From positions 5,407,501-5,471,500 of the forward strand of contig JAMKCF010000014.1 in assembly GCA_023634235.1 (NCBI GenBank): DNA of 64,000 nucleotides. Reading direction: 5' to 3'. Under the pieces are notes generated by a model. The model was not told the DNA's origin and searched no databases. It saw only the letters and a list, made by a program, of their open reading frames with translations. Within the stretch, counting starts at the first letter, position 1. The number at the start of each line of letters is the position of its first letter. This DNA is from Pisaster brevispinus. Its lineage: Eukaryota; Echinodermata; Asteroidea; Forcipulatida; Asteriidae. Below are positions 1,550 through 33,290 of this stretch, in pieces. Made by a program: the position numbers and the translations under genes.

Positions 1550-4500
1550 GATGGCTCAATCATAGCTGCGAACAACTCGGTGATAACTCTACCAGGGAAA
1601 CCAAAGCAATCCAGTTCCTGATCAAGTCCCTGGAGGTAGACCCTAACAGCGGCCAGTCCTGGTACTTCCTAGGCCGGTGTTATTCCAGTGGTGGTAAAGT
1701 CCATGATGCCTTTACGTCTTATCGGCATTCTATCGACAAATCTGAAGCAAATGCCGACACCTGGTGCTCAATAGGGTAAGAAGCCTCTCATTGTTTTCCT
1801 TTTGAATGATTAGTTGTGGAAGAGTAGGGGATCACCTCGATGTTTCGAGTTCATTGCAAGTACCCTTGTCTACAATTTAACCACTGTGACTCAGAAGCTT
1901 TAGGAAACCGGATTTGCTCTGGCTTTTGATTCATAGTGATTAAGTTCTCCTTTCAGGCATTGTTAATTTCATCACCAGAAATTAAAAATGATAACAATAG
2001 TAATATTTGATAAGTGGCTATAAGACTTTGGGATGCATCAAAGTGTGAGCTTTATTACTGCGTGGCGTTGAAGCCAGAGGAATCTCCCTGCATTCATAAG
2101 CAGCAGAAGTTAACACTCCCGGCAGTGATTTCACATTCACTAAGGTTCATCTTAAGATGAGTTGTCAGTATTACCTTAATCATTTGTATTGTGACATCAC
2201 ACTTTGCTTAGTAGTTAAGAATGATCGGCACTTAAGATCAATCTTAGCTCTTTGTGAAATCGGCCCCTGCTCTTCTAGGACTGGGGCTCTGTGTTTTTTT
2301 CTTATCCCCCACCAATCCTCAGTACAGGAGACTTGTAGCGTAACATCCTACCAGTTTACAATCAGGACAAAGCAATCGTGGCACTGTGCCTTGACCGGCC
2401 AGCCCTTCATTTAAGCCCACACATGACAAAACTTAAATAACGTTAACTTAAACGTTAACTTAAACGTTAAGTTCTTTATGGAATTAGTTCTCTCTTTCAA
2501 ACTGTTATCAATTTTTCAAAGACATTTCTCATTCGTTCTTTTCAGGGTCCTCTACCAGCAACAGAACCAACCTATGGATGCCCTACAGGCTTACATATGC
2601 GCAGTACAACTAGATAAGTCGCACGTTGCAGCCTGGACAGACCTTGGTATACTATATGAAGCTTGCAGTCAACCGACGTAAGTTTTTAGGCTAAGTTCCT
2701 TGACCCCAAAGAACTTCCCTGTTAAACTGTTTATTTAAACTGTTTAGTTACTCAGTTATGCATCTTTTCAGCTGATCAGCTGAGTTCCCTTTTTTTCTTT
2801 TAATAAAAGTGCGCAGGTCTGTTTATGGTGTGTCTTGTCTGAGCGGTCAAGTGCATCGGACTCGAGCTCTGTTGAATCTGATCAGCAGAGTGTAGGTTCC
2901 AGTCCTGGTCATGACACTTGTGTCCTTAAGCAAGGCACTTGAGCCATTATTGCTTCATCCTTCGGATGGACGTAAAGCTGTAGGTCTCGTCTCATGCATT
3001 GTATAATGCACGTAAAAGAATCCAGTACACTTTTTAGTAAGAGGGGGGTTTGCCCCGGTGTTTCTGGCAGTAGCTGCTGAATGCGCCGCAGCACCTTGTA
3101 AACCCTTATAAGGCACCAGTTATAAATGGGTCTCATAACTCATAAATTTCAAAACCTGTCTTCTCTTTGTTCAAGTGCTTTGAGCAGCTTAGTATGAAGG
3201 GCATTAGCAGTAACTCTGGATATGATGATTTGTGTTTAATGAGTAGTGGTATTCTTGAGTCGAGGTGTAACACTTCAGCGTTGAAGCAAAACTCACTGGT
3301 AACCCACTTCTGATCCAGAACATCGTGACATCGTGATGAAGAAGGGCAAAGTTGCATGCCTGGTTAAATTGTTTGTTTGAACTGTTTAGTTAAATTGTTT
3401 AGTAATATTGTTTAGTTCTCCTTCCTGCAGCGATGCACTGACGTGCTACATGAACGCCTCAAAGTGTGCCAAGAATAACAACGCCACGGCGTTGGCCCCG
3501 AGGATCAAGCTACTGCAGGCGCAGGTCAACGCACTGCCTAATCTACATATGCAAACCAAGTAAGTGAAGAAGAAAATCCCACTTAGAAGCGTGGTAATTA
3601 GTCATTTGTGGTTGAACAAAGAAAACATGACTAGGTCGCGATTTGAACCTGCGACCTCCGGATTAACGTGCTGGAACTCGACCAACTGAGCTATCTTACC
3701 CTTATGTTGGCGGTCTCCCTTTTTTAAAATGGAGTGTAAGCCACAGGTGTGTGGGTGGCCCTAATTGTTGTCTATTAAGCCATTTGGACACCCCTGTATT
3801 TTGTTTTTCAGTTGAAAGCAAATTTGAACTCTACCTTAACAATTTTTCGAGGGAACATGATGTTACCTCAAACCTTACTGGATTGTATCTCCACCATGGA
3901 GAGATTCAAATCCTACCAACCACGATTCAATATGGGTTTGCAACATTCCCTGGAGAGCCCATTGTGGTCCAAGGGAAAATGGTCCACAAGTTATGGTTTA
4001 TACACAGCACCCACCGCACCGATTGTTTAAGTTTGTCTTGGTTTTGCAACGGTCATATTTGTCTGTGTTTTCTGCATAAGATGGTCTTTTATATGTGACC
4101 ATATTCAAAGGTCCCAAACCGCACAGGCGCCGCTGACTTGCTGAGTTATCTTATTTAGTTGACCCTTTTAGGGGGAAAATGGCCTCTTTTTTGCTAACCA
4201 TAGAGGGCGCACTTTATTAAGAATCGGCCATATTGGAATTATCGCTTCGGATGGTTGGCTGTAAGTGGCCAAGTTGAGGTCAAGGTAGGACTAGGAGCAG
4301 AAATTGTCCCCCACCCCCAACAGTGAGTAAACAATTGTGATAATTGTTTTATCCACAGAAGCAAAGCACTGCCAAGCATTGAAGAAGCATGGAGTCTTCC
4401 TATACCGGCTGAGCTGACATCACGGCAAAGTAACATGAACACCATCCAACAAGTAGGTCTTGTTATGTGTTTGTTCAAAAATCATTTTGCCTCAGTAGAA

Positions 4501-7500
4501 TTTAACACCCCATCAACAAATACCACCCTAAACAATTCGTTCTGATAGTGAACACTCAGTGTTCCAAAGAGCATGGCTGAAAGTCAAATGCATATATCTG
4601 CAGTATCAACTTTGAGTGGTCTGATGCACTGGTCTCAAGCTCTGATGTTGTCGGTTCGAGACTCAATCATGGCACTTTAGTCCTTGAGCAAGACACCTGA
4701 CTGTAATTGCTTTCGCCCTTCGCTTAGGACTTAAATGACCACAATAAAAAGTCAATAAAACTCCAGAGGAGTGAATGTTTATATTTTAGATATCATGTCT
4801 TGAACCATACAAATAACCTACAGGTGTAGATTTGCATTGGTTTACAATAATGTTAACCAATATTCACCTGACTAGTCACAATACATAAACCTACATGAAT
4901 GTAGCACTTAGAACTAAAGTTCAAACCATGGATGGCACTGGGTAGGAAACAATTTTTCAACCTATTCTCTCTAGAGCTTAGTTGACAAATCCTTCCAGAT
5001 CTGTTAGGTACAATCAGCAGACGCAGCTGGATGTGTGCAGTTTGTCCAATATAGACTGTGCAAGCCTCAAAATTGAGAAAACAAGTGGAACGAAGACTAT
5101 ATTTTTTGTGAAATCAAATCTTCTTTTAAAATCTATGTTTACACAAATCTTGAAATCAAAGTTACCCTTAGAAATTTGTTATAAATACAATTTCAGTTTT
5201 TTTACTTACTAATTGAAAGTATTGAAAAAAACTTACATTGAAACAAAATTAAAACTTGGGATAAGGATGGTTATTTTTTAGAAACCCCATTTTGGGATCT
5301 CACCCTCAGGTGTGCAATGATAACATGAACGTCAGTCAGCTGGGCAAAACAAGTAACAAGAAATGGAGATCATTAATTTTGTAGCCATAACCAAAGTGTT
5401 TGAAGAAACGAATCCCGCCCACGTAAAACTTACTATGGCTGGGAACAACTTGGTCCCGGAAGTCCGAAACACACAAGACTTGCACAGTCTATGCAATTAA
5501 TTTACTTGTATGATTGCATGTGATAAACTAACTGTTTGCCATTACAGGTGCTAAATATGAGCAACGGCTGAGATACTAGCTGGATCGCCGATATTTTCTG
5601 GCCACTCACTAAATTAATCTGGGGATGTAGTGTGTTTTCCCCCGGCATGCATGATGAATATACACTGGCCAGCAAGTGAACAATTGAAATGTAAAGAAAA
5701 AGATGACAAGGGGCTCGATTTCACAAAGCACTAAGATTCGTCTCAAAGATGAGGTGTCGGTGTTACTGTAGCGATTTGTGTTTATGACATCACATTCTGC
5801 TTAGCAATTAAGGGGGACATGTCTTGAGAGCAGCCTTAGCTCGATGTGAAACCGAGCACTTCTCCTGTAAGCAAAGTTTAGGCCCAGTGAAACGATGTGA
5901 GTCCTTGAGTCTGGTGGAATTAAAGTCATTTCAGATTTACAGACTAAACATCGGGAGAACTTCTGGGATTTACAGCGAGGCCCTCTGTTCCAAATTTGAC
6001 CAGCTTCAATTCTTTGAAAGTGGAACTGTCTTTACACCTCTAGTTTGTTAAAACTAATTGACATGATCTGAGGAGACTCTGTTGAGCTGATGTCGTTTCA
6101 TATTATTAACATCTCCACTGTGTTTTACATAGATAGCTTTGTATTTGAAAAGAAGGGGCTGATCTCAAATCTTATGATGAGAAATTCTAAACCCTAAATT
6201 TGAATTCAACTCAAAAGTCCTTTTTTTCCCTCGTGTAACTTTTTCTGCAGGCTCGCATGATTCCACCCTCTGTGGCTGTCACCAAAGCCATGCCTCCCCC
6301 TCCCTACCCAAACCAACTAACCAATCAACTCACTGTGCCCAATACCGCTGCTGCTGCCGCTGTTGCACCCAATTGCCTCCAGACGCCCGTCTCTATGGGT
6401 GGGCAGGGTACCACCTCATCCACCCCTCAGCCCGGCAATGCACCCAAGCGCCGAAAAAGCTCTGCTTCACAAAAGAAGAAGGTTAGTTCCCCATTAGTCA
6501 GTTAGTTTTCATGATCCTTGCTTTGCTAATAAATCATTTAAAAAGAAGGTAACTTTGAAGACCGAGGGGCCTTTTCCAAATATGGGCTTGGGGTCTGGTT
6601 TGGTTCCGGCATCAACTTTAGAGCAGTGTGCCTTTTGCATGGTGCTTCAATGGAAAATGGAGCCAGAAGCCAGAGCTGAAGCCAGGGTTTGGAAGAAAAT
6701 CCCAAGGTTCATGCTCTTTTGAGTGTGTGGATTTTTGATTTTGGAAAACAACTGGAATCACTTACTTCATTAATTTATTTGTTTACTTTTTTGGTAAATG
6801 CAATGTGAGTCAATAGAACATTATAATGACTCAAGTAAGATTGTTTTTTTGAAAGCCAGCATTGGTTTTTGCTGTCATCATCTGTAATAGTGATTTTTAC
6901 ACACAGGAACCTACATTTGGTCCTTTTGCCCTAAGAGTGCGTTGCGCTTGTTACATCGACCGAATATATCAACAAATTTGGTCATCATTTCCTTATGTTG
7001 GACAGTATGATAGTTAAATGGTGGTGTGTTGTCATGATCATATCAAGCCTGTGGCTGCACATGGAATTATGAACTCTAACCCAGGTACTGCATGCACACG
7101 TGCAACTGCTGTTACATTACAACATCATGATGACAATGGCGATTGTGATGTGACGGTCAGCGTGCGCGTTCAGCTACTGGATTAAGAGTCTATATTTCTA
7201 TGTACAGCCACAGGACTGCTATGATCTTGACGACAGTCCCCTTTAAACAAATTGAAAGTATCAAGTCAGGGAAATCCTTCATTACACTGTGCTGCTCACC
7301 ACGGAACTCTGCACTTATATTTGTTCTTATGACCCCATGGAATCATGCACTTTATGGAGCCGAATTCTGTGGTAAAGCATTGTCGTGAAATGGGGCTTGG
7401 ATTTCTCTGACCTGTTGTCAATGTGATGTAACTATTGTATTGCCCCTAAACAAGTTTTTAGCATGGTCTGTTTCGATTTAACATTTAATTAACAAATGGA

Positions 7501-8080
7501 ACCAATTACATGGTCATAGCTGGTTTTGTTTATCTTGTGATGTTTCGTCAAATGTTAAGTTTTGCATAATGCATTGATGTTCTCGACAAATTACAAATCA
7601 AGTTTCTTACTGTGTGTGTGTCTCTTTCCATGTACCTCGACAGTCTTCCACCTCAGTAGCTGAGCTCCTGAGTATACAGCAGCAACAACAGCAACTGCTG
7701 CAGCAACAGCAGCAGCAGCAGATTCTCCAGCAGCAGAGTAGTGCACCCAACCAGCCCCCACAGCAACAGCAACAACAGCCTGCGCCAACCCCGGCACCAC
7801 CTGCACCTTCTCAGCAGCAGCAGGCGCCGTCACCGCCATTGTTCTACCTGACGCCGCAGCAGGTGGCGTTACTGCAGCAGTTGCAGCAGAACCAGGCTAA
7901 CCTGAACCCAGAGCAGACAGTTGTAATGCAGCATCTGCAGCACAGCCTTTGGCTAATGCAGCAACACCATCAGCAGGTATAAATACATACATTTTTTTGA
8001 TTTGATGTTTCGTACGAATCATATAACTATCATGTTTTCTAATATTGGACATTACCATTTCCTTAATATCCCTTTTGTTT

Positions 8081-8122
<42 letters not shown>

Positions 8123-11100
8123 GTTTGTTTGTTTGTTTTTTTTGGGGGGATGGGTTTATTAGATAGGGTTTTCTACATGTAACCATCATGGAAAGTTTTC
8201 TAACAGGAGATGAAGCAGTATCCCTATCCCAAGTGGCAGAAATTTATTACTGTGCAGACATCTCGGATCAAAACCAGGGGCTTTTTCTCACACCTTGGCT
8301 TAGACTAGAGGCTTTGTTGGATGTTAGAGCTTTGTGCAAAATGCATACTGCTTCAAAGACAGAGCCCAAGTCTAGGTTTGGAAAAGACCCCAAGTTGCTA
8401 AACTTGGGATTGAAGGGAATGCAGACTGGCCACCTTTTCTTGCTATGAGAATCAATGTACAATATTGCTGTTTAATACAAGTTACGTGACCGAGATTAGT
8501 GGCAGCTTGATAACAGGCACAAACTCAGTGCAGCCCTTTTTCAGTATCTAGTTCACCTTTGCAAGTCATATTCTTACTTTGTTTCCCCCAGATGTTGAAA
8601 ATGCATCAACAGATGCAGCAGCAGCAACAACAGCAGCAGGGTGGGCACCAGCAACTCCCAACAAATGGTGCAAACGGTGGACAGCAACCTGCTCAACACC
8701 ACCTTGGAAGCCTTCCCAGTTTAAACCAACTTGGGGATCCAAGTCCCTCGAACACTCAGTCGCGGGCTGCCTCAGCAGGAACGCCCACGGACGCGCTACC
8801 TACTTCAAATGGAAACATGAACTTTGATTTACTAAGTCGGACATCTACAGGAAGGAATGTGGTAGCACCGGGCGCGGGTATCGCCACAACAGCCAACGGA
8901 GGAGGGCAGATGGTGTGCACGGGTGGAGCATTTGTACCCTCAGGAAATACCGTCTCCAGTGTTGCGGGATTTGGAAACCTAGGCATTGTTGTGTCCAGTG
9001 CAGCATCGCAAGGAGTGAACTTTGCACGGCACCCTTCCCCTGCCAGCACACCGAAAATCCAGGAGTTATTCAATAATCAGGCTGTACCTCCGGTCTCACT
9101 GCAGAGCCGCTCTGGTTCAGCCTCCCCTCTTCATGTGCCAAAGAGGATTGTAACTCCACCGGGGTCTGCTGGCAGCCCTGGGCACTCCCAGACTCCCCTC
9201 CAGAAGACCATGGACTTCCCGGCACCCAATGTGGTTGCCCCACAAAACATGGACATGAATCAGAAACTAGCCGAGTTCAAATCCAGGACTGGTGGCGTGG
9301 AGCCCCCAAGCCTCATGTCCCCTCAGGAAATAGCTGATTCCATGCTGGCGCAGCTCTCCCACACGGACACTGCCACAAGCAAAAGCAGTGGGACCTCCTT
9401 TATAGGTGGGGCTAGCTCCCCCAGCGTCAACAATGCCTTGTCTGGTGAGAACCCTGCAGGCTTGAGACAACACAGTAGCGCAGGCAATGCATTCTTCAGT
9501 ACTATGCCACATGGCATGGGGACAGGGACAGTGCATGAATCAATTAGCTCCATCAAGCAAGACGGTGGCAGCAGTGGGATCTTCAAGACCCCGCCACCAG
9601 TCACCTCCAGCATCAACTCATATGAGAGCATCCTCTCGCAAACATTCCACTCTGGCAACGTCGACAGCAAGCCGAAGACTCCAGAGCACCGAACTGCTGG
9701 GCTTGGCTCATCGGGGATGCACCCCCCAAGCTCTGTCCACCACCACTCCTCATTGGATGGACTGAACAATGTCATTTCGGGTTTGAGTAGCCCTGTCTCG
9801 AACTCCATGTCCTCCTCTCCCATTCATGGGTCTCAAAGCACTACCTCATCAGGTAGTGTAGCAAGTCGCTTGTCGCAGATAGAGAATGCACCCAAAGAGT
9901 TTGGTTTGAATGCTATGTCTGGCATTGGATCGCCGTCTGGTATCCCGGCTCTCAGAAGGAGTAGTGGCTTAGAGACATGTGTACAGAATCATGTCAACGG
10001 AATGGGAACTGGTCAATATGATCAGGTATGTAAATAAATTTGTGGCCCGCCCTAAAATATTTGTTTGAAAATGTAAGCGAGTAGTGTTTTTTCCCGATTT
10101 CAGCACCTCAACATTAATGTAGAAGAAAAGGTCAAGTTATTGATTCAGGGGGCTAATGAAAGGATGCAACTACTTCCTAGTACACTTGTGTTTTCATTTT
10201 ACTCGTTCTTGTTACAGCACCTCTCTATAAACACATCCAACGCGGCGGGCCCAGGTAGCCATTCAACTTCCCCCTGCCTGTCTCCATCCGGACTCTCCAT
10301 CTACTCCAGCTCCGCTAAGGTCCTAGAGGCGTGCCGGAAGCTGGGCAAGAACGGCCTGCGGAACAACAGCATCCTACTGGAGAAGATGCCCCCGCCAGCT
10401 CCCCCAGAGCCACCGTATCCACCCCTTCCGAAAGACCAACTCAACCCAGCCACACCTAGTGTTTACGTGAGTATAGAAGGAAATGCAGCAAAGCCATCAA
10501 AAGTTTATTTAAAATTGGCATGAGAGTAATAAAACAAGAGTAACAATTAAGAACTCACTCCCCTGCAGTGAATTTAATAATGAGAAGTCCCCTCAATCCA
10601 CTAAGCGAAGGTAGTAGTCCCGATTGATTTCCTACCTCTCAGCTAGTAGGCCTACTTTATAAGCAGAAAAGTTCTTTTCAGAATTAAGTAATCTCCTGAA
10701 TTCGGAAATCTACTCCAGGGCACTAGAACAAATCTACTCAGCAAAGTAGATATATACACATGGTGTTACCGCAATCTGAGTATACGTTGATACCTCACCA
10801 TGCAATGCCTCAAAACCCATATAAGAGTAACATGTTTAAAATATTGGGGAAAAATATGTGCGCCATTAAAGATACTGCCGTCCATCCAAAAGGGTCAAGA
10901 GGTCAGGTTACATTTGAGTAAAGATAACACTGATACACTTCGCTGTTAAAGATTTGAGTCACCAGGAGACCTACATTTATTAAGGTCAGGGTTTTGGAAT
11001 TATGGAACTGAATTAAGTCGTCTTATTTAAGTGTTGTTGTCTAGTTGCAGGAAGTAGAAGAGCCAGGCAGGATATTTTTCCCTATTTTAATCTGATTTTG

Positions 11101-14100
11101 ATCATATTTTTTGCTATGTGAAAATAAGAGTATTGTTAAAAGGTGTAAAAAAAGCCTGTACCATATGTAGGTCGGCCCTTGAACTTGATAGCATTTGTCA
11201 GTGTTTCATCGTAGGTAGTATGCCGTGCTTGAGAGCTCTGGGAATGGAAAGTGGGTCATGCGTGTGTTAATTACATTATGCCCTGACGTTCCATTGGATT
11301 AGTGGAGTGTAGGGCATTAGCAGCAGCTCTGGATGTGATGATTTGTGTTTAATGAGTAGTGGTATTCTTGAGCGGAAGTGTAACACTTCAGCGTTGAAGC
11401 AAAACTCACTGGTAACCCACATCTGATCCAGAAGCCTGCTTGGGACTGCTGACTGCAACAACTCCTATCACCTATTAAAACAACTGCTTTCCAAAGTGTA
11501 CAATATCCGTTGTATTTTGTTGATATTGTTGGGAGAACTTTGTGATAGGGCTTTGGAATGTTGTCCCAAAGTAAAAAACAATCAGGGCGAGATTTCATGG
11601 CATTGTTGACCCTGGAATTCTACGCTTACAGACTTCACAGGGTGCCATAAGAGCAGAATACCTCACTGAGCAGAGCATCATGAAATTGCATGTCAATCAC
11701 TTTGCATTTTCAATGGCCATGTCACACAAGGCAATTTACAAGTTACCAGTTCCAGGCAATCTCCAATAAGAAAATTGATTTGTATTTCAGATTTCTCATT
11801 ATTTTCTTGAATAGAATGTCTCGCGTGCTGCTGAAGTGTTCCTTGTGCTATGGCCTTTTAATATCACTTTTCTAGGGCTTATGTCATAAAGCTTGTACAT
11901 GCCAAAATTTGCTAAGTATTCAATGTAATGAAGAATTACCCAGCTTGGCAAAAACCGGGTACCAACGAAATATGCATTATTGTGGCTGGTGCCCGCTACA
12001 GTCTCCTGACAATGACTAGAGCACACTGGTGGAAATGTTGAGAACAAACCAACCAGGGCCCAATTTCAAGGCTCTGCTTACCGCCGAATTCTGCGCTTGC
12101 GATCACCATTCTCCACTTACTGTGCAAGCGTCGAATTTCTGCGCTAGCTGTGTAAGCAAAGAATACCTAGTAACGTGGAGTACGCACGCGCACAAGCAAA
12201 AATTCTCTGCTAACCTGTGAAATACGCCGATTCTTTGCTTACGGTAAGCAGAGCCATGAAATTGGGCCCTGGTCTTTTCAGAGCCGACACAGGAGATTTG
12301 TACTTTGTTTATCGAAGAGAAGTTTTACTTTATATTTTGTTTGGCAATATTTTGTGTGGTTTTATTAAGTTCTGTTTGGTGTTAATATCCGCAGGTGGAG
12401 ACGAAAGATGATGCATACTCACCAGCCCTAGCAGAGTACTGCAAATCTCCCAATCAGCCAATCACGGTGATCCGTGGCCTGGCCGCTGCCCTCAAGTTGG
12501 ATCTGGGCCTGTTCTCAACGAAGACACTTGTAGAGACGCACGGTGATCATCCTGTGGAAGTGAGAACACAGGTATAAAGGAAAACAAACTTGTAGATTTT
12601 ATTTTGAGTTGTGTAATAGTATGTTGTACTCTGACCCTAATTCCCTTGAGTGATTAAGACCGCCACTAGGCTTTGCCTTTATAACTTTTTCTAAAAATAT
12701 TGGCAATTAGAATCAAGGGAAGAAACTTTTTACAAAGTTTCTACTTTTCTTGTTATTATGCTGTGACATTGTATTGGATTAGTGGAGTGAATAACATATA
12801 AGCAGTAATTCTGGATGTGATGATTTGTGTTTAATGAGTAGTGGTATTCTTGAGCCGAGGTATGACACTTCAGCATTGAAGCAAAACTCACTGGTAACCC
12901 ACTTCTGATCCAGAACATTGTGATGTAGATAGCCTGCTTGGAACTGCTGACTGCACTGGTCTCCATTTACGGAGGGTGTTTTTGTTGTAAACTAATGATG
13001 GGTCCGGATTGGTGGCAGTGGGTGTTGGTTTAGGCTTGAGCGTATTTTGATCAAGCTGCAGCCACTAATTCATACATGGCCTCATTACCTTTACAGAGAC
13101 AACAGCCACCAGATGAGAACTGGGATCAGGCGGGTCTGAAGAAGGTCTGGAAATGTGAGAGTAGTCGATCCTTCTCTACCATCACAAGATATGCTCAGTA
13201 TCAAGCCTCATCCTTCCAGGAAAGCCTTAGGGTAAGATATCATTTATTTGGCTAGAAACCCCTCTGGGTCATTACGTGTCAATTGTACTGCATATCAAAA
13301 AGGAACACTTCGGTTTCATGGAGGACATTTTTCTATCAGTTTTCTCATTACTCCTAACAAATTGAAATATGAAGTGCATATGTGTTTTCTTTATGGAGAT
13401 TGCACTAAGCTTGGTGGCTGTAAATTGCCCTGTGTGGCATGGTCCTTGAGGGTGTAGGTATTAGGTAGTTTGTGATTGGAGTTTCAAGAAGTTGTACAAA
13501 CATACAAGATTGCTTGGATGAGGACATCATCAGGTAATTAAGTCGTGGTTATGAACAGAAATTGCGTGGAAGCAACTTGATGATTGGGTTATTCAGAAAA
13601 AGAAAAATGTAAAAAACTCCAGTTAAAAAATCAAAATAAAATCACTGTCTCATGTCCTATTAGTTCCGTCAGAGAAAATTTATGACGTTAATGATCACCT
13701 TTATTTTGGGGGGTCGGGGGGTGGGGTGGTTGAGACTCCAGCTGGCAGCTGACATACCACATCATTTCCCAAAGTTAACATAGTTATGAGTATGCGCACC
13801 TGTCTGAGAACAATGGATTTACGTGGTAGGTTTGCTGCCACCTAGTGTCCCTAGAGTTCTGATATCATACTTGGCATAAGGTAAGCGAATCGCAGCTTAT
13901 GTTTTCTGGATGTTTTCTGGATGTGATGATTTGTGTTTAATGAGTAGTGGTATTCTTGAGCGGAGGTTTTAACGTTCGCGTTGAAGCAAAACTCACTGGT
14001 AACCCACTTCTGATCCAGAAATAATTTAATATTTAAAGTTCCGTTTAAGAACAGTAGAAAGGTAACTCAAGAAAAGAAAATAGTGCAGTTCTTTCATCGG

Positions 14101-17100
14101 TTTTAACATTCTTTATACCTGTACTTTTTATACAATTGCTACAAAAAATGCTTTCCTGCAACTAGATAAAGATTTAAGATGGTTGAATTTTTCTGTGTTA
14201 CAGGAGGAAGCTGAGAAGAACTCCAGACTTAATTCAGACGACCCATTCTCAGCAAAGAGGTAAGAATTGTATAACACAATACATTCCTCAGGGTTGGGGA
14301 TCAGTAGAGAAAGGAAGTTAGGGAGGTGTGCAGAATTAAACAAGCGGTAACTTAGTGTTGCCTCGTTTCACCTTGGGGCAAGAATTTTACATGATAAGTG
14401 AAGAAAGAACGAAGTTGGAAATGCAAAATTAAACAATTGTTAACATGGGGTTTAAGCTATATTTACCGTGGTAAACCTTGGGGATAAGAACCATGCAAAG
14501 ACATTACACAGGAAGAAAGTGGGGAGGAGTGGAAAATTAGACAGTTGGTAACACAGGCTCGAGCCTTGTGTAACCTTGTTTTACCTTTGAAAATCTTGGG
14601 GTAAGAATTATACCATGCAAAGACATTACACAGGGTGAATTAGTGAAAGAAGAAAGTTTGATTGGGAGAAATGCAAAATTAAACAATTGGTAACTCTGGG
14701 TTGAACTTTGTTTTACCTTGGGAAAATTGTTTGTTACCTGAGGTTCAACCCTGGCTTACCACATGTCTAATTTTGCGTAAGCCAATTTCGGTAAACAAAT
14801 TTCTGTGGTTACTGTGGCAGAAAGATGAGCGTCAGGCGAAATGGTATTTCGTAAACGATTAAGAAGTTTTGATAGGGCGTGTGGGCGTTCACAGCAGATT
14901 TGGAATGCTGTGTCACTCATCTGCTTACACGAACCACCTACCAACTTGAGTTGTTTTTTTACAGGAAAAAGAAGACAAATGGAGGGCCGACGACCACAAC
15001 TTTACGGGAAGGAGGAGGTCGAGAATTCAAAATGCTAAAGTTTGGAACCAATGTTGATCTGTCCGATGAGCGGAAGTGAGTACTTTTTCCTGAACCACTT
15101 ATTTTTGTTGTCAAATTTAATTTTGATTGATCGGTATATCAATGAAAAATTAAGATACAATACAATACAATACAATATTTACTTGAAGACACTGTTATTA
15201 GCAAAAAGGAGAGTTCACAATTCACAAATGCTTTGAGAGATGTTGGACCCTTTTCATACTATCTGAAGGAGTGGTTGTTCTGAGAACCACGGTTGAGCTC
15301 TTCAACTAACTCTGGTTCTTCAGCTATCTCAACCAACTCAGCTCAACCAACCTGAGTAATAATAATGTGTATGTATTTGTGCACTGATCATGCCATTAGA
15401 CCTCTCAAAGCATACTAAAATATTATTACCACCATCTCAACTCCTCAAGAGTATGCAGCACCAGCAGGCAAAATGGGCACACAGGTTACTTCTTATTAAC
15501 ATGGACAATCTCTACCATTGCACTTGAGTGGCTTGCTCACAGACACGTTATAAACGGGATTTGAACCCAACTTTTTTCAGGTCCGTCTCAGGATTTTTCC
15601 TGAATTCAGTATTTTTTACGGACTTTCCTGCGCCTTCAGATTTTATTGAAAGTGGCAAAAAGGCCTGCGTTATGACCCAACATTTTAGTATCTAAGTGAA
15701 ATAACACAGAGAGTCTGTAAACCTTTACCATGGTTATTATTAGTGGGCTTCAGTCAATGCTTGAAATCTAATTGAATGAACGGTTTGCTTGTAGATGGAA
15801 GAAACAGTTGCATGAGTTGACGAAACTGCCGTCGTTCACACGGATTGTGTCTCCGGGTAATATACTCAGTCATGTAGGTCACTCCATACTGGGAATGAAC
15901 ACAGTCCAGCTCTACATGAAGGTGCCAGGAAGCAGAACACCAGGTAAGCAAGTGTAAACATTACTTGGTGGTTTCTAGTTGGTGGTTCCTTTAACTTAAG
16001 TACTAAGTCTGGGAGACATCCTTAGACCACCCCCTTGCTTACTGAATGTCTGGATGTGATGATTTGTGTTTAATGAGTAGTGGTATTCTTGAGTCGAGGT
16101 GTAACACTTCAGCGTTGAAGCAAAACTCACTGGTAACCCACTTCTGATCCAGAATAACAAACCTGCTTATCACTGACACTTGCACGGAGTCCGTTGCAGT
16201 CCAAGTTATCTGAGTACCACTGCTGTTTTCTCTCCTAATCTTAAGGCATTTCTGGATAATTGTTGTTTTTTGATTGTAGGGCACCAAGAGAACAACAACA
16301 TGTGTTCAGTGAATGTTAACATCGGACCGGGAGACTGTGAGTGGTTTGCGGTGCCAAATGCGTACTGGGGCGCCATCTGCAGTTTAACTGAGAGGTGGGT
16401 ACATGTTCAGGTATTAGGCCTTGCACTATTCCCCCCTCCCCCCTCCAGTTCCCACACCCCCAAACTGAGACGTAGTGAGGGAATGTAGATGGCTTCTCAG
16501 GCAGTACTGAGCCCAATTTCATAAAGCTGTTCAGCAGAACAATTTTAAACAGGCCTTCATTTTAATAAATCTGAGGAGAGCTGTGCATCGCTCTCCTTAA
16601 ATCAAAAGGTGAATTAAGGAGAGCGATTTTAAAATCGCTCTCCTTAAATCAAAACAATGAATTAAGGAGAGTGATTTGCCCAACTCTTTGGCATTTTTAT
16701 CTATTACAAAAATACTTCACCAATCCCGAGCGCGTATTTCAATTACAGGGAACGATTTGGTCCCAAATTTTTGCATAGCAAAACTGCTATGCAATTTTTT
16801 TTTTGCATAGCAATCTCAAAATATTGCATAGCAGTCCATAAGTTTTGTATAGCAAATTTAAAAACCCTGTGAAAATTTAACCCTGTGACACGGGTTTATT
16901 TGTGTGTTTTTTAAGGCTTAATTTCAGGCCAAGGCTACTTTCAGAATGTCCATAATTAAAGAATAAGACGCTCCAAAACTTAATATGAAAAAGGCCTATT
17001 CCCTTAACTTTTTTTTCACTAGAGACAACTTAAATTTTGGGTTGCCCGCAAGTTTTTCCACTAGCCTACGTGTATTATTAAATGCACACAATTTTCGTAG

Positions 17101-20100
17101 CGTCAAAAAAAAAAAAAAAAAAAAATTACGATTTTTTTTTTTTTTTTTTTTAACGATCTTATCCCCTATTTTCTGCCCTAAATAGTACTTGTTTTCATCA
17201 ACAACCATTTACATGGATTTGTAATTTGAGAATCGGTTTTATAGAACTTCTTTTGCAATGAAATCTTCGTGTTAACGATCGATCGACGACGCACATTGAG
17301 AAAAAATTCAATGAACTTTGCCCTGCAACGCCCTCTATCGGCAAAAGTTGTCGATGCTTGAATAGCCTGAACCCAACGCTGTGTATAGTACAGAATCCAC
17401 GGGCGTGCGCCGCGTTGTGCAGCAATTCTTTACTTGACTCGTGAACGTGTATGGAGTTGGAGGCTAGCCAAGCTTCCTTATGAATATGAATTTATTGACG
17501 GGCCAATCACAGCGTGCGGAATGTTGGTTAGGATGGACTTTGGACCTGCTGTTGTACTGTACTACGTCTACCATGTGTTGTGTGCGTGCGGGCGAACGTT
17601 GGCCGGCTACTCACTACCATGTGGTTAAGGGAAGTGCGTGCGTGTTTACTATGAATTGAACGATCGCGATCGCGGTCACATTAAATCTAGCAAATATCAA
17701 GACTTGCTAAACCATTTTATGAACTTAAAAATAATCTCTCTTTGGGATTTTACAACTGTACCCCTCATTTATTGTGAAAAGGAACAATTTTTTGACTAGC
17801 CTGGCGGGCTACTAAGGGAAGGGTTTTGACTCGCACGCCGCTGTTTTCACTCGCATTTGGCGACCGCTTATTTCGAACCCTACCGATGCTGCTTCCATCG
17901 ACCCATCATGTGTGGGGGAATGTGGATCACAGCGCGGCGTCGTGCGCGATATGATTGTTCGTTTGTGTGACCGGCTGCGGTAAACATCAGGCATGCGGGC
18001 ACGCACACACAGTCAAAACATACATGTACTTGAATAGGGCTCGTTTACCACTTTCAATTAACAACGTCGAAGCAGCAGCTAGCTTATTTTTAACAATCGA
18101 GGGGAAACAAAAAAGAAAAGCGTGAGTTCTTTAGATGTTGCCACCTCCAACTCTGAGACTCAAGCCGCTTACTTTTTTCAACAATTAGCGTTTTTAAAAA
18201 AATGCTCTTGTTGAAATTGTAAGGAGCGCTTTTTTTTGCTCTCCTTAAAAAATTTAAGGAGCGCGGAGGAGCGCGAGCGCGATCGCGCTCCTTTAAAATG
18301 AAGGCCTGAATTTACTTAGCAAATTTCCTTGCTAAGTAAGAGTAGGGTACCAGTTCGCAGCAATGGTAACTGAAGGTATTTTACTGGTAACCTAATTTTG
18401 CTGAGCAAGCTTTTCTGTGCTTTAGTAAGTTGTTTTGCTTACAGGCTTTATGTCTGGATGTGATGATTTGTGTTTAATGAGTAGTGGTATTCTTGAGTTG
18501 AGGTGTAACACTTCAGCATTGAAGCAAAACTCACTGGTAACCCACTTCTGATCCAGAACGCAAGAATCTCTGGGATTGAATTAAACATCAGTTTATTATA
18601 ATTATTTATTTATTGGTTTTTTTTATATTTGTAATTTTTTTATGTATTTAATTTTTATTTTATTATGTATTTTTCCTTAATTTATTATGATTATTGTTAT
18701 TTTAGGTTATTTATTTATTTATTTATTTTTATCTATTTTTTTTTTTTTTTTTTTTTGGGGGGGGAAACACACTTACAAATTGACTTTGTTTCTACATCTC
18801 CAGGCATGCCAGGTGTGTGATTTCTCTGGATTTTTCTTGATTTCAGGATTTTCTTAAAACCTTCTTGAGCCTTCAAATTTTTATGAAAGACGTAAAGGGG
18901 GGGGGGTTTCACGCTGGGTATATACCTGTAGTTTTGCATTTCTGGTCATGCACAGAGTCTTGTCAACATTCTGAATCTCTGAGGTTCCGGTTGGAGAATA
19001 AGGAATAAGGGGGAACCCAAACCCTGCAATCTATTTTCAGGAATCTTCAAATTCTTCAACTCTTCATCCCTGCAACTCAAATCCCGATCAGGACAAGAGC
19101 AAGCTGGTTAACATGTTGAACATTGGCATATGTGACATGCAACTTTTCAGCTTATTTCCTCTTTTGAAAAATTGGGTAAAAAAACTGTTGAAAACTGAAA
19201 ACACTGGATACAATTTTGGTTACTTGGCCGTTTCCTTTTCTTCTTCTTTTTGTTGCAAATTCAAAGTTGAGTGTCTGTACAGTACAAGTATGGATTTCTC
19301 AAAAAGAAAAGAAAAGAGTTTTTTGTGAGGAAAAGTGTAAAAAATGACCCAGGTTTTGAATGTTTCTTTAACAGATATAACATCAACTTCTTGAAAGGGT
19401 CATGGTGGCCAGTGTTGGAGGACTTATATGAGGAGAATGTACCTGTGTATAGATTCATCCAGAGGCCGGGAGACTTGGTCTGGGTTAATGCTGGGGCTGT
19501 GCATTGGGTACAGGCTGTGGTAAGTACATCAAGACTGTGGCTGAATAGTAACGCTGAGGGGCCAATTTCATAAGAGGACATTTCTGCTCACAGTGCAGTC
19601 CTTCCATGGGCAAGAAATATCTGAGCTCATCTGAAATCAATTTGGTGAAAATGAATTTCCTGGACAGTATGTCTGGATGTGATGATTTGTGTTTAATGAG
19701 TAGTGGTATTCTTGAGTCGAGGTGTAACACTTCAGCGTTGAAGCAAAACTCACTGGTAACCCACTTCTGATCCAGAACTTGAGATAACTAGCTTCATGAA
19801 ATTGGCCAGATTTTATTTTTTTTTAAAGCAAATTGAAAGTAGTGGGGGTGATTGGCAATTTTATGCCTCTGGAAACTCCTTACTTTGAAAGCTTATGGAG
19901 TGTCTCAAACATTGGGTCTGTTTTAAGTGTGAAGGAACGTTCTAGGTAGGCATTCGCCCACAGTTTAGTGTACCACCAGAACATTCTTCTTGACTGTGAC
20001 ACTGTGCGTAACTACTGGAACATTCTTTCAGAGAAGAATTATGCAATCAAACGTTCGGTCGGTGTAACGGACCTGCAGTTCAAGCATGTAAGCTGGAATC

Positions 20101-22857
20101 CTTAAACCAAACCAATAAGAAGATTGCTACCATTCTGACTTTTGAGACACTCTCTAATTGAATTCAATTCATATTTTCAATTTATTTAGGCTTAATATTA
20201 GACTAAAAAATTACAAAAGACTAAAATTGATGTGTTTGCCTTTTCTTTTTCACGACAAAAGTAGGTTTAAAATAAGCGATAAAACCTGCAAATACTAAGC
20301 AAACAAATAAAGGGTCAAAAACAGGGGAACTAAATCATAGAAGAGCATCGTTCCAAAAAGTTGCTAATGACTAAACAGTGCAAAATTTAGGAAAGCAAGG
20401 AACGGAATTGAAAGTACCTCACAGCTGCAGCAATGCTAACAACAGCAAAAAGGTGAACAGAGGGAATCTAAATGTATGTGTAATTGTTGTTGTTTTCAGG
20501 GATGGTGCAATAACATAGCGTGGAATGTAGGCCCACTGATTAGCAATCAGTACAAGTTGTCAGTGGAGCGCTACGAGTGGAACAAGCTGCAGGGATATAA
20601 GTCTATCGTCCCCATGATCCATCTCTCCTGGAACATGGCCAGACATATCAAGATCACCGAGCCGCGACTCTTTGAGATGATCAAGTAAGTTTGTTTTCTT
20701 ATTTAGTTATTTATTTACTTACTTACTTACACATCCTACAGCACAATAACAGGATGAAGAGAAGAAATGCTCAGTTTTAGATGTGGGTAGAAAACCTCCA
20801 GACAGGAGCTTTGTTTCTTTCAGGCAATCCTTCGGGCTCCAGCTGGTTCTCTTTCCTTCCTCTGTATTTTAATCGCTCTTGTATCTTTAATGTTTTTTAC
20901 CAATGTGCATTATTGTACTTTTTATCTGCCTGAGAAATGAAATAGAACAAAATAAAATATAATTTGGGTTTTGAACAAAGAAAAATTTACCGGCTCTCTA
21001 CCAACTGAGCTATTCAGCCCTACACATGTATGTTGGCAGTCTCCCTATTAGTCAATATCTTTGTTCGGGGGTGCCAGTCAAAAGCCTTGCAACCGTTAGC
21101 TGCCGTGTAGCCGGGGATCACACCCAAGTTTACGATACAACCTGGGAAATAAAATATAATACACTTACAAACATTTTGTAGGATACGGTGCTACTGCCGG
21201 CCCAAATAACAAATGCGACATTAGGACAGGCATACATATCTCATCCAGTCCAAACCCGAGGGTTACCATAGAGGGGAGGATTTTGAAGGATTAAGATGGA
21301 ACTGTAACCAAAGACACGTGTGGGGGGTGTTAGGGTTTAGCAACAATTAAAACAATCTGTCTGATGTGTTACACTTGACGTTATTTTGTCTAGATACTGC
21401 TTACTGAGAACGCTGAAGCAGACTCAGATGACGTTAGACTTCCTTCATGAGATCGGCGTGGAGGTGCACTGGCATGGCAGAGCCAAGAATGAGACGGCGC
21501 ATTACTGCGTCAACTGTGAGGTGAGTTTCAAATCAGTAAGGAATTCATCGTGTACAGTCACGACCTTTAGAATCATGTAGAGTCGTGATCTTTAGATCCG
21601 CGTGGAAGTGTGCTGGTACACGTGAGCCAAACATGAGATGGCGCATTACTGCGTCAACTGTGAGGTGAGTTAAAAGGTATGGTCATAGATTGGTTTTTGT
21701 CTACTGATGCTGATTTATAGGAAAGGATATAAAGAAAAATACAGTAAAAGTCATATGTGAAAGTTTCAGCTGAATACAGTGTCTGCTTGCTGAGAAAACA
21801 GCACAAAAACTGTCATGGTATTTTCACAAGAATGTCCAATCTATCCATGTTTATGAGGCGACTGCGGGTACCAACTGCATCTCTGGCCGTAGCATTCGCA
21901 AACTGACACCTACCTTCAGAAATCTGTCTAGGGATAAATTATCCAAACCATATTACTTCAAAGGGAATCCTTTCTCCAAATAAATATACTATTAACAGCT
22001 GCAGTGCTTCTCATCAATTAAATTTGTACGGTCAGTAATTTTTGGAGAGTTTATCCATCTAGGACCCTACCTTTAAAATCCTGAAACATAGGGAAATTGT
22101 CTTGTATAATTTTTGAAATGTAGATAGGATACTGGAGTGTTTCTTGTAAACTCCCCAGCAAGATAGAAGTTCTTCCAGATGACTATTTTGTAACAATTTT
22201 TGGATTGCTCGTCTGGATTTCAGGTGGAGGTGTTTAATATTCTATTCACGACCGAGAAGGATCGGAAGTATGAGGTACACTGCCAAGACTGCACCAGGAA
22301 GGCTAGCCATAACCTTGAAGGCTTTGTGGTCTTACAGCAGTACAAACTGGAAGACCTGATGGAAGCATACGACAACTTCACCATTCATGTACCTGAGGTA
22401 TGTTAACACCCTCCTGACTCTCAAAGGCACCATATGCTTTGCTTAAGGTGTGGGTGTATTGCATTTATTTTTCATGCTATCCATGTTTTGACAATCCTAG
22501 CTCCAGAGGTATTCCTGTATGTCCCAAATCCATCAGAGTTCACTGCTCTGTGGTTCAGGGGTGTGATTTCTCAGGATTTTTCCTTCAGTCCTCAATTTTA
22601 TTGAAAGAAGTAAAGCAGTATCCGAGGAGGAACAGACAAAGCTGTCTAGCCCTTACAAGAATGAAGTATCAGGCCTGTACCATTGCTTTGATTGCATGAC
22701 ACAAGTTTGGCTCAAATCCCTGGGGGATCACAGCATCCATGCATCCAGCAAACTCTATTTTTCCATAAAATCCTGTTGAGAACTATTGTTAATAGAAATC
22801 CACCAACTTTTTCCTCCCTCTCCATTTCAGAAAGACGAGAACAGAAGTTCAACATGA
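1550..22857 (+). CDS. KDM6A: Lysine-specific demethylase 6A (UTX), 3' nineteen exons
   Basis: This gene encodes the JmjC dioxygenase that removes H3K27me2/3 in the nucleus as part of the MLL3/4 (COMPASS-like) complex. I read exons at 1550-1775, 2546-2677, 3431-3559, 4359-4452, 6251-6481, 7644-7976, 8592-10025, 10218-10466, 12395-12571, 13097-13231, 14204-14259, 14965-15075, 15795-15943, 16280-16394, 19375-19519, 20500-20684, 21394-21520, 22224-22397 and 22831-22857. All have GT-AG borders and compatible phases, giving 1,408 codons plus TGA. TPR motifs fill the first four exons. A basic KRRK..QKKK patch ends the fifth, exons six and seven are Gln-rich, and the 1,434-bp seventh exon is Ser/Pro/Gly-rich linker. 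The Fe(II) ligands are present as HQE at 16282-16290 and the third His at 19502-19504. The zinc site has CxxC pairs at 21506-21517 and 22281-22292. The first exons lie before the window, so the CDS is 5' partial. I infer it is functional because every key residue is intact. Confidence 0.95.
2141..2267. mobile_element. Partial MITE related to 5712-5857
   Basis: The stretch shares its interior (TGACATCACACTTTGCTTAG) and its 3' end (CTTAGCTCTTTGTGAAATCGG) with the better-preserved MITE at 5712-5857. The left end is degraded. It is intronic in KDM6A. Confidence 0.4.
2832..3182 (+). repeat. tRNA-derived SINE family B, copy 2
   Basis: The element begins with an A-box-like TGAGCGGTCAAGTGCATC, followed by a B-box-like stretch (GTAGGTTCCAGTCC) and the family body with CCTTAAGCAAGGCACTTGAG. 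It ends in an AAGTGCTTTGAG tail just upstream of snoRNA copy 1. It is sense to KDM6A and intronic. Confidence 0.6.
3215..3319 (+). ncRNA. Intronic box C/D snoRNA, copy 1
   Basis: The 105-nt unit starts TCTGGA and ends TCCAGA, forming a 6-bp terminal stem. It has box C ATGATGA at 3222-3228 and box D CTGA at 3310-3313. It lies in the KDM6A intron 2678-3430, in the host sense, 111 nt before the next exon. It is the only copy with A as the first base of box C. The segment GAGTAGTGGTATT precedes a CTTGA that could serve as D'. The class is recognised from its layout; I cannot assign a named family. Confidence 0.75.
3611..3732 (-). repeat. tRNA-derived SINE family A, copy 1
   Basis: On the minus strand the unit carries an A box (TAGCTCAGTTGGTCGAG) and a B box (GGTTCAAATC), followed by the TTTCTTTGTTCAAC tail shared with copies at 20970, 37873 and 38086. 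It lies in the KDM6A intron 3560-4358. Confidence 0.6.
4612..4740 (+). repeat. Truncated tRNA-derived SINE family B, copy 3
   Basis: The segment keeps the head (GAGTGGTCTGATGCACTGG), the B-box region and the CCTTGAGCAAGACACCTGAC body of family B. It lacks the 3' half. It is intronic in KDM6A. Confidence 0.5.
5052..5491. mobile_element. MITE with TAGACTGTG inverted ends, copy 2
   Basis: The ends TAGACTGTGCAAGCCTC (5052-5068) and AAGACTTGCACAGTCTA (5475-5491) are near-perfect inverted repeats. The subterminal TTGGTCCCGGAAGTCCG resembles the corresponding part of copy 1. It is intronic in KDM6A. Confidence 0.55.
5712..5857. mobile_element. MITE with GCTCGATTTCACA inverted ends
   Basis: The left end GGCTCGATTTCACAAAGC pairs with the right end GATGTGAAACCGAGC, giving a 146-bp non-coding hairpin element. 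A degraded relative lies at 2141-2267. It is intronic in KDM6A. Confidence 0.55.
8080..8140. repeat. GTT/GTTT microsatellite
   Basis: About 60 bp of GTT repeats grade into GTTT and a T run. It lies in the intron between the two Gln-rich exons of KDM6A and has no coding value. Confidence 0.9.
11328..11432 (+). ncRNA. Intronic box C/D snoRNA, copy 2
   Basis: This 105-nt unit has the same terminal stem, box C GTGATGA and box D CTGA (11423-11426). It sits in the KDM6A intron 10467-12394, sense to the host and about 960 nt from the acceptor. It differs from the other copies by CACAT instead of CACTT just before box D, so its D guide is altered at the second base from the box. Its flanks resemble those of copy 3, which points to duplication with surrounding intron sequence. 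Confidence 0.73.
12052..12273. mobile_element. MITE with ACCAGGGCCCAATTTCA inverted ends
   Basis: The 222-bp element has long near-perfect terminal inverted repeats of about 30 bp. The left end is ACCAGGGCCCAATTTCAAGG and the right end is its reverse complement ending TTGGGCCCTGGT. GCTCTGCTTACCG is mirrored by CGGTAAGCAGAGC just inside. It lies in the KDM6A intron 10467-12394, about 120 bp before the exon. Related ends occur at 28051-28217 and 31920-31965. Confidence 0.75.
12810..12914 (+). ncRNA. Intronic box C/D snoRNA, copy 3
   Basis: This 105-nt unit has an intact terminal stem, box C GTGATGA and box D CTGA (12905-12908). It lies in the KDM6A intron 12572-13096, 182 nt before the next exon. 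Substitutions against copy 5 fall in the spacer after the D' region and in the loop of the internal CTTCA/TGAAG hairpin (GCAT instead of GCGT). The stem itself is kept. Confidence 0.75.
13916..14019 (+). ncRNA. Intronic box C/D snoRNA, copy 4 (variant hairpin)
   Basis: This copy is 104 nt long and sits in the KDM6A intron 13232-14203, 184 nt before the next exon. Boxes C and D and the terminal stem are intact. The internal hairpin differs: CTTCA-loop-TGAAG is replaced by AACG-TTCG-CGTT, a short stem closed by a stable UUCG tetraloop. A fragment TTTTCTGGATG is duplicated just upstream. Confidence 0.73.
14261..14730. repeat. Degenerate tandem repeat of about 110-120 bp
   Basis: Phrases such as ATGCAAAATTAAACAATTG, GGTAACA..GG and TTTTACCTTGG return about four times in the same order. 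The copies are diverged. The array begins right at the splice donor of the 56-bp exon 14204-14259 and fills most of the following intron. Confidence 0.55.
15155..15180. repeat. ACAAT pentanucleotide microsatellite
   Basis: Four to five tandem copies of TACAA/ACAAT lie in a KDM6A intron. Confidence 0.7.
16049..16153 (+). ncRNA. Intronic box C/D snoRNA, copy 5
   Basis: This 105-nt copy lies in the short KDM6A intron 15944-16279, 126 nt before the next exon. It has box C GTGATGA, box D CTGA at 16144-16147 and a perfect 6-bp terminal stem. As read by eye it is identical to copy 7 along its whole length, so I use it as the reference sequence of the family. Confidence 0.77.
16551..18307. mobile_element. 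1.76-kb insertion with AGGCCTTCATTTTAA inverted ends
   Basis: The left end AGGCCTTCATTTTAA is mirrored by TTTAAAATGAAGGCCT at 18292-18307. Subterminal inverted motifs recur: the perfect palindrome centred near 16631 (AAGGAGAGCGATTTT and its mirror) and CCTTAAAAAATTTAAGG near the right end. The centre is unusually CpG-rich for this window (17390-18010) and contains an A-run/T-run palindrome at 17104-17152. No convincing transposase frame is visible, so it looks non-autonomous. It lies in the KDM6A intron 16395-19374. No clear target-site duplication was found. Confidence 0.5.
18453..18557 (+). ncRNA. Intronic box C/D snoRNA, copy 6
   Basis: This 105-nt copy lies in the long KDM6A intron 16395-19374, downstream of the 16551-18307 insertion and 817 nt before the next exon. 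Stem, box C and box D are intact. It differs from copy 5 by TTGAG for TCGAG after the D' region and by GCAT for GCGT in the internal hairpin loop. Confidence 0.74.
19672..19776 (+). ncRNA. Intronic box C/D snoRNA, copy 7
   Basis: This 105-nt copy lies in the KDM6A intron 19520-20499, sense to the host and 723 nt before the next exon. It is identical to copy 5, with box C GTGATGA, box D CTGA at 19767-19770 and the TCTGGA/TCCAGA stem. Identity to a copy 3.6 kb away implies recent spread or gene conversion. Confidence 0.76.
20970..21128 (-). repeat. tRNA-derived SINE family A, copy 2
   Basis: On the minus strand the element has a 5' leader (CCCCGGCTACACGGCAGCTA ... TGGCACCCC ... GGGAGACTGCCAACATA), then the A box TAGCTCAGTTGGTAGAG, and ends with TTTCTTTGTTCAA. 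The B-box region is deleted here. The leader matches copy 4 at 38086-38270. It lies in the KDM6A intron 20685-21393. Confidence 0.6.
21596..21672 (+). pseudogene. Decayed partial duplicate of the KDM6A exon ending at 21520
   Basis: The segment repeats the 3' half of exon 21394-21520. About 28 identical bases include the exon end and its GTGAGTT donor. Upstream the match weakens and an in-frame TGA interrupts it (TGGTACACGTGAGCC). It is a local tandem duplication inside the following intron. Inclusion would truncate the zinc-binding domain. Confidence 0.75.
21710..21925. repeat. Dispersed repeat shared with 35810-35985
   Basis: Phrases including GGTATTTTCACAAGAA, ATCCATGTTTA and CAGAAATCT recur in the same order and strand at 35810-35985 in FBXO36. 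The two copies are diverged and no termini are clear. Confidence 0.45.
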
Positions 22858-32658: not shown

Positions 32659-33290
32659 AAAATCTGCTCTAGAGTGTTGGGGTTGTGGGTTCGAATCCCA
32701 CTTTATTATCCTGTGGAGGTCAGGACCTGGTTAAATCTTGCAGTTCAGAATCTGCTCTAGATTGTGAGGCTTGTGGGTTCGAATCCCACTTTAATATCCT
32801 GTGGAAGACAGGACCTGGTTAAATCTTGCAGTTCAGAATCTGCTCTAGATTGTGGTGCTTGTGGGTTCGAATCCCACTTTAATATCCTGTGGAGGTCAGG
32901 ACCTGGTTAAATCTTGCAGTTCAGAATTTGCTCTAGATTGTGAGGCTTGTGGGTTCGAATCCCACTTTAATATCCTGTGGACTGGAAGACAGGACCTGGT
33001 TAAATCTTGCAGTTGGAGACATCTGTTCTAGATTGTGGTGCTTGTGGGTTCGAATCCCACTTGAGGAAGCTGTGGAGGATAGAACTCTGTTGGATCTAAC
33101 AGTTAATAGCATCTGCTCTGGAATGTAGTGTCATGGGTTTGAATCTCACTCAATTATCACATGGAGGACAGAACGCTATTAGATCTGGCACTTAAAAATA
33201 TATTTGCTCTTCAATTTGGGGGTTGTGGGTTCCAATCCCACTTGAGTATCCAGCGCAGGACAGGATTCGGCATCACTGCCCATCACACAT
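32659..33290 (+). repeat. Tandem array of about 88-bp units, each with a tRNA-like T arm
   Basis: Seven units follow head to tail. The first four are nearly identical and the last three diverge. Each holds GTGGGTTCGAATCCCAC or a close variant, a perfect T-arm stem-loop that contains a Pol III B box. The rest of the unit (ATCTGCTCTAGATTGTG ... CCTGTGGAGGACAGGACCTGG) has no canonical A box and does not fold obviously into a full tRNA. The array lies between the convergent 3' ends of KDM6A and FBXO36. Confidence 0.85.

Follow-up and report, generated by a model that had tools for sequence, protein, structure and literature searches.

Why should one short unit recur, nearly unchanged, in seven different introns of a single gene? 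The question is raised by a stretch of 64,000 nucleotides from the sea star Pisaster brevispinus (assembly GCA_023634235.1, contig JAMKCF010000014.1, positions 5,407,501 to 5,471,500 of the forward strand; hereafter the window), in which the repeated units lie within the histone demethylase gene KDM6A/UTX. The units are, whatever their target, very probably genes for box C/D small nucleolar RNAs (snoRNAs), as judged from their sequence. The fuller reading, that these intron-encoded RNAs guide 2'-O-methylation of 28S ribosomal RNA (rRNA) at the equivalent of A4050, is probable to a lesser degree, because it also names the methylated A, because the rival explanations overlap with it and because the 28S sequences compared were from vertebrates only.

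The original prediction described seven units of 104-105 bp that start with TCTGGA-(T)-RTGATGA and end with CTGA-TCCAGA, and all seven are present where it placed them (Table 1). Six are 105 nt long and copy 4 is 104 nt, with pairwise identities of 91 to 100 percent. Box C (RTGATGA, or RUGAUGA in RNA) near the 5' end and box D (CTGA, or CUGA) near the 3' end are exact in every copy, and these are enclosed by a terminal stem of 6 bp, TCTGGA/TCCAGA, that local bases lengthen in copies 3 and 4. The layout by which the prediction recognised C/D snoRNAs, a terminal stem with boxes C and D, is thus intact throughout. A D'-like TTGA (UUGA) is also found in all seven, and each copy has the intronic, host-sense placement that is usual for animal C/D snoRNAs.

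These features are not those of a chance motif, a reading which was considered and rejected on the shuffle controls of two unit patterns and on a generic scan. The pattern TCTGGATRTGATGA has seven exact matches in the window, all on the plus strand, and one further match with 2 mismatches at 31210, with shuffled versions giving a mean of 0.83 and at most 4 matches at up to 2 mismatches. For CTGATCCAGA there are seven exact matches, at the unit ends, and 12 with no more than one mismatch, against a mean of 3.69 and a maximum of 9 in the shuffles. A model-free C/D scan of the window (exact RTGATGA, CTGA 50-130 nt further on and a stem of 5 bp or more without mismatches) returned the same seven units on the plus strand and none on the minus strand, and gave no units in the reversed and complemented windows used as controls. 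The covariance-model check that had been proposed came out in the same way: a model built from the seven units and applied, unfiltered, to the entire window gave 27 rows, with the units at E 7e-30 to 1.4e-33 and the other 20 at E 0.16 or worse.

What the RNA might do is suggested by its longest complement to rRNA, AATACCACTACTC, 13 nt that match vertebrate 28S perfectly. The corresponding antisense element of the unit, GAGUAGUGGUAUU, lies one nucleotide upstream of the D'-like UUGA in all seven copies and complements AAUACCACUACUC of 28S over 13 bp, where a C/D guide is expected to have at least 10 nt of antisense sequence just upstream of D or D'. The target stretch is printed in excerpts of several papers, as a trout primer (PMC4486110), a mouse fragment (PMC6052916) and human probe or primer sequences (PMC12359038, PMC6856654). 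Against yeast 25S the complement is 11 nt, the sole match of at least 9 nt in that molecule, and when the unit was shuffled by dinucleotides, 15 of 3000 versions reached a match of 13 nt or more anywhere in 25S and 18S, with the D' position left free. Two further pairings were discarded: TTTAATGAG pairs with 18S over 9 nt, a size expected by chance, and the yeast Am2220 site of snR47 is not the target, as the site corresponds to yeast 2488.

Counting five bases back from TTGA leads to the base that pairs with the last A of GAAAUACC before CC, so that under the box+5 rule the predicted methylated nucleotide is the A before CC in GAAAUACCACUAC. This A is equivalent to yeast 2488 and, by its distance to Gm4196, to human 4050. 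Both coordinates depend on rRNA sequences that we take to be accurate, the modified positions that we assume for them fitting in 40 of 40 and 38 of 38 cases. Counted in this way, the base four further on is a C at 4054, which agrees with the published Cm4054. The A4050 site lies, we presume, at the base of the L1 stalk. Presumably there is also a Drosophila site in this region, 28S A2958, a number that the text of PMC13228274 does not contain.

The pattern of variation among the copies also speaks for the snoRNA reading. There are 12 variable columns in the unit and 10 of them fall within the 21-nt apical stretch that follows the D' box, between D' and C', a clustering matched by none of 20000 random placements. 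The other two are the R of box C, which is A or G, and the base two before box D in copy 2. The apical stretch can fold as a 6-bp hairpin that is complete in five of the seven copies, and single-strand folding of whole units gave z-scores of 0.38 to -2.85, which is uninformative for a C/D RNA.

That the host is KDM6A, as first proposed, is borne out by the joined JmjC exons (188 aa), which among PDB entries match KDM6A best (3avr, E 9.5e-104), followed by UTY (4.4e-101) and KDM6B (2.1e-95). A protein search with a single exon brought up four proteins without names among 8000 scored candidates. Peptides read from the window allowed 18 exons to be mapped, giving 17 draft introns, with the TPR exons placed by eye against what we take to be the human KDM6A sequence. 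The starts of the introns between TPRb and c, c and d, k and l, and m and n, together with several ends, lie a few nucleotides off GT/AG in this draft, and two borders, where g|h starts and where q|r ends, are not fixed, which is immaterial to the placement of the units since none is near enough to any border. On this map the units occupy seven different introns, all in the sense of the host and never two together, as had been claimed. Length-weighted random placement, however, puts seven units in seven different introns with P 0.12, so that one unit per intron proves nothing by itself and was dropped as evidence; for all seven to be in host sense the chance is 1/128. The 5' end of KDM6A lies before the window, so further copies are possible. 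Within the same gene, a second copy of the 3' part of an exon, 5' splice site included, lies 144 bp further downstream (21445-21527 and 21589-21671, 82 percent identical).

Table 1. The KDM6A gene and the candidate C/D snoRNA copies within its introns, in window positions.
Feature	Position	Strand	Extent or intron	Predicted D' guide	Remarks
KDM6A/UTX (host gene)	1594..22406	+	core of first TPR exon in window to stop codon		
C/D snoRNA copy 1	3215..3319	+	between exons TPRb and c	3241-3253	
C/D snoRNA copy 2	11328..11432	+	h|i	11354-11366	T to A two bases upstream of box D
C/D snoRNA copy 3	12810..12914	+	i|j	12836-12848	7-bp terminal stem
C/D snoRNA copy 4	13916..14019	+	j|k	13942-13954	104 nt; 8-bp terminal stem
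C/D snoRNA copy 5	16049..16153	+	m|n	16075-16087	identical to copy 7
C/D snoRNA copy 6	18453..18557	+	n|o	18479-18491	
C/D snoRNA copy 7	19672..19776	+	o|p	19698-19710	identical to copy 5

How the copies came to be in so many introns bears directly on a different explanation, in which a miniature inverted-repeat transposable element (MITE), a short interspersed element (SINE) or a snoRNA-derived retroposon happens to sit in KDM6A introns and the box-like ends are its terminal repeats. The copies are near-identical and their similarity mostly stops at the unit ends, as a mobile element would have it, and one copy per intron could, as calculated above, be chance; the spread of snoRNAs by retroposition is also described in an extract of PMC3412847. 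The flanks tell otherwise. Of 42 flank comparisons made by free-end-gap alignment with shuffles, those of copies 2 and 3 are alike on both sides (44/56 and 33/42 aligned identities, 77/98 in all, reached by 0 of 500 shuffles on each side), copies 1 and 2 have a common upstream flank (38/43; 0 of 500 shuffles) and copies 1 and 3 have both flanks in common more weakly (P 0.012 and 0.004). Among the 36 comparisons that are not between copies 1-3 one stands out, that downstream of copies 3 and 5 (P 0.01), which can be chance given 42 tests. Units 2 and 3 are identical at 99 of 105 positions, with five of the six differences in the apical stretch, and their flanks are more diverged.

Target-site duplications, one of the features by which the original prediction proposed to recognise a MITE, show no excess over random places. 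Copies 1 and 5 have a word of 6 nt common to both flanks and copies 3 and 7 one of 5 nt, whereas in copies 2, 4 and 6 any such word is below 5 nt; of 2000 random places, 866 reach 5 nt or more. Nor is there any further copy in the window, including about 41.6 kb downstream of KDM6A; beyond the seven units the matches are short (E 0.27 or worse), and the antisense matches between units are weak, the best at E 0.005. The unit patterns had no copies in a virus collection (two scans) or in prokaryote contigs (one scan), as expected for an animal sequence, and the virus collection also gave no match to the 28S target stretch itself. The diverged flanks common to copies 1-3, which point to duplication of DNA, and the lack of excess target-site duplications favour intragenic duplication over a MITE or SINE, and with no other copy in the window and guide and boxes intact in all seven, the mobile element becomes highly improbable. 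Intragenic duplication, followed by selection or conversion, fits the sequences better.

The snoRNA reading may be put together as follows. Each unit would encode a single intronic box C/D snoRNA, about 100 nt long, that is left once the KDM6A intron has been spliced out and trimmed as far as the stem TCTGGA/TCCAGA. Boxes C and D would form a kink-turn to which the C/D proteins and fibrillarin bind, and the guide would pair with its 28S stretch so that a 2'-O-methyl group is added to the A facing the nucleotide five upstream of D'. The copies, having arisen by duplication inside the gene, may have been kept alike by selection and possibly by gene conversion, with an output of up to seven or more snoRNAs from each KDM6A pre-mRNA.

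Several observations weigh against this reading. Transcription, processing, protein binding, methylation and the presence of the same 28S stretch in this species are all predictions from the DNA, with the 28S match itself known from vertebrate sequences. A clear C' box was not found in the units, the best by eye being the poor candidate GTTGAAG. Neither helix has any compensatory change among the seven copies, and the covariation score is matched by 418 of 500 shuffles and exceeded by a version slid by +3. In Rfam the window has no match to a snoRNA family that passes the family's cut-off, and a looser search, run on copy 1 alone of the seven, gave three weak rows, the best to snoZ119 at E 0.18. 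The distance from unit to 3' splice site ranges from 111 to 962 nt, unlike the usual spacing of vertebrate intronic C/D snoRNAs. In the flank comparisons, free-end-gap identities are high even for unrelated pairs, so it is the shuffles that carry that argument. In the table of PMC11542601, as far as it extends in the part available, the human sites between Um3925 and Gm4196 are Gm4042 and Cm4054 and there is no yeast site, and the human, yeast and plant sites found in such partial sources do not include the predicted A (human 4050, yeast 2488).

Evidence on both sides comes from a second element, at box D, which may form a weak duplex, split in two, with 28S just upstream of the D' target. In favour, its best duplex in 25S is within the stretch starting at 2460, adjoining the D' target, with the two pieces lying around a hairpin. 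Of 1000 shuffles, 13 put the best site beside the D' target and 3 reach both location and energy. Against it, the energy by itself is reached by 175 of the 1000, and in copy 2 the box D guide contains a mismatch. Because of this mismatch, and because the hairpin region is yeast sequence, the pairing is taken as a lead only.

Both the box D element and the unlisted A could also belong to an orphan or repurposed C/D RNA, one whose main role is something other than methylation at 28S A4050, such as a chaperone-like pairing at the same place or the pairing with another RNA. For this reading, the D guide has its best fit in that same stretch of 28S, as two pieces on either side of a hairpin, and the segment from box C to the D' guide is invariant in the seven units too, for no known reason. 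The D' element nevertheless is built like a standard methylation guide, with a 13-bp pairing that stops 1 nt short of D', and a repurposed RNA is regarded as unlikely, though not to the same degree as a mobile element. Doubtful to a similar extent is the most elaborate form of the methylation reading, in which a lineage-specific methylation at the base of the L1 stalk (the A4050 equivalent) would be set by a dual-element guide clamping both sides, supplied in at least seven copies by each KDM6A pre-mRNA and so tied to transcription of an H3K27 demethylase. A link in dosage between a chromatin regulator and the ribosome can only be inferred.

Elsewhere in the window are features that have no part in this account. 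Two tandem arrays (38507-39190 and 41039-41494), with copies spaced by 57 and 20-40 bp and each with an open repetitive frame, repeat one another in part in inverted orientation, with a complementarity of up to 97 percent over 119 nt. An open frame on the minus strand at 51507-52373 encodes a major facilitator superfamily transporter (Pfam PF07690, E 3.2e-18). A transfer RNA (tRNA) match in Rfam at 37894-37966 scores 31.7 bits (cut-off 29) with no ARAGORN call and is perhaps the head of a SINE. There are also dispersed repeats labelled SINE-like by eye (1092-1155, 2879-2942, 4637-4700, 41944-42022) and an array spaced by 88 bp (32662-33285) that holds tRNA-like words such as GGGTTCGAATCCCACTT.

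Amongst known systems the nearest in target is SNORD75 (U75), an intronic box C/D snoRNA of GAS5 whose D' guide acts on the same 28S stretch, at C4032 in the old numbering and C4054 in the new. It might be supposed that the KDM6A units are its counterpart and methylate this neighbouring C rather than the A. The U75 core is, we assume, GAGTAGTGG; relative to it the guide of the KDM6A units is four bases longer, which places D' in register for a different nucleotide. Methylation at C4054 would call for ATTC as the D' box, which is unlike CTGA, and it is the TTGA of the units that is in register, for A4050. A SNORD75 model, which we take to exist in Rfam, gave no match at its cut-off in the window and was absent from the loose search of copy 1 alone. 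The extracts of PMC6856654 and PMC2653536 do speak for a counterpart, with the D' side of U75 guiding C4032 and the test primers spanning the stretch. In length, however, U75 of chicken has 89 nt even with added flanks (PMC2653536, in the part available), against 105 without them for the units, and a U75 counterpart is improbable. The sea star units also differ in their host and in being seven copies. The resemblance to snoZ119 (RF00361) is in the surroundings of boxes C and D, and with 21.3 bits against a cut-off of 70 copy 1 is not a member.

No report of KDM6A/UTX as a snoRNA host was found in the literature, judged by titles, which is weak evidence of absence; to this extent the novelty that was claimed for the host stands. 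If the units are expressed, they would add a rRNA methylation site not found listed and a new, high-copy snoRNA host, and seven copies with a freely varying non-guide part would amount to a natural experiment on the bases that a C/D snoRNA requires. The multi-intron arrangement is less novel. In sponges snoRNAs have been duplicated into a neighbouring intron (PMC3412847, in part), and in chicken, according to the sections of PMC2653536 available, GGgCD57 has 4 copies in introns 1-4 of one transcript and GGgCD61 has 5, in introns 4, 5 and 6 of RPL17 and introns 4 and 5 of a second transcript, with intragenic duplication proposed and guides and structure kept. Such arrays make the KDM6A arrangement less surprising than first held, as in both cases one C/D snoRNA has been copied into several introns of one host, with the sea star differing in its seven copies, its histone demethylase host and its target.

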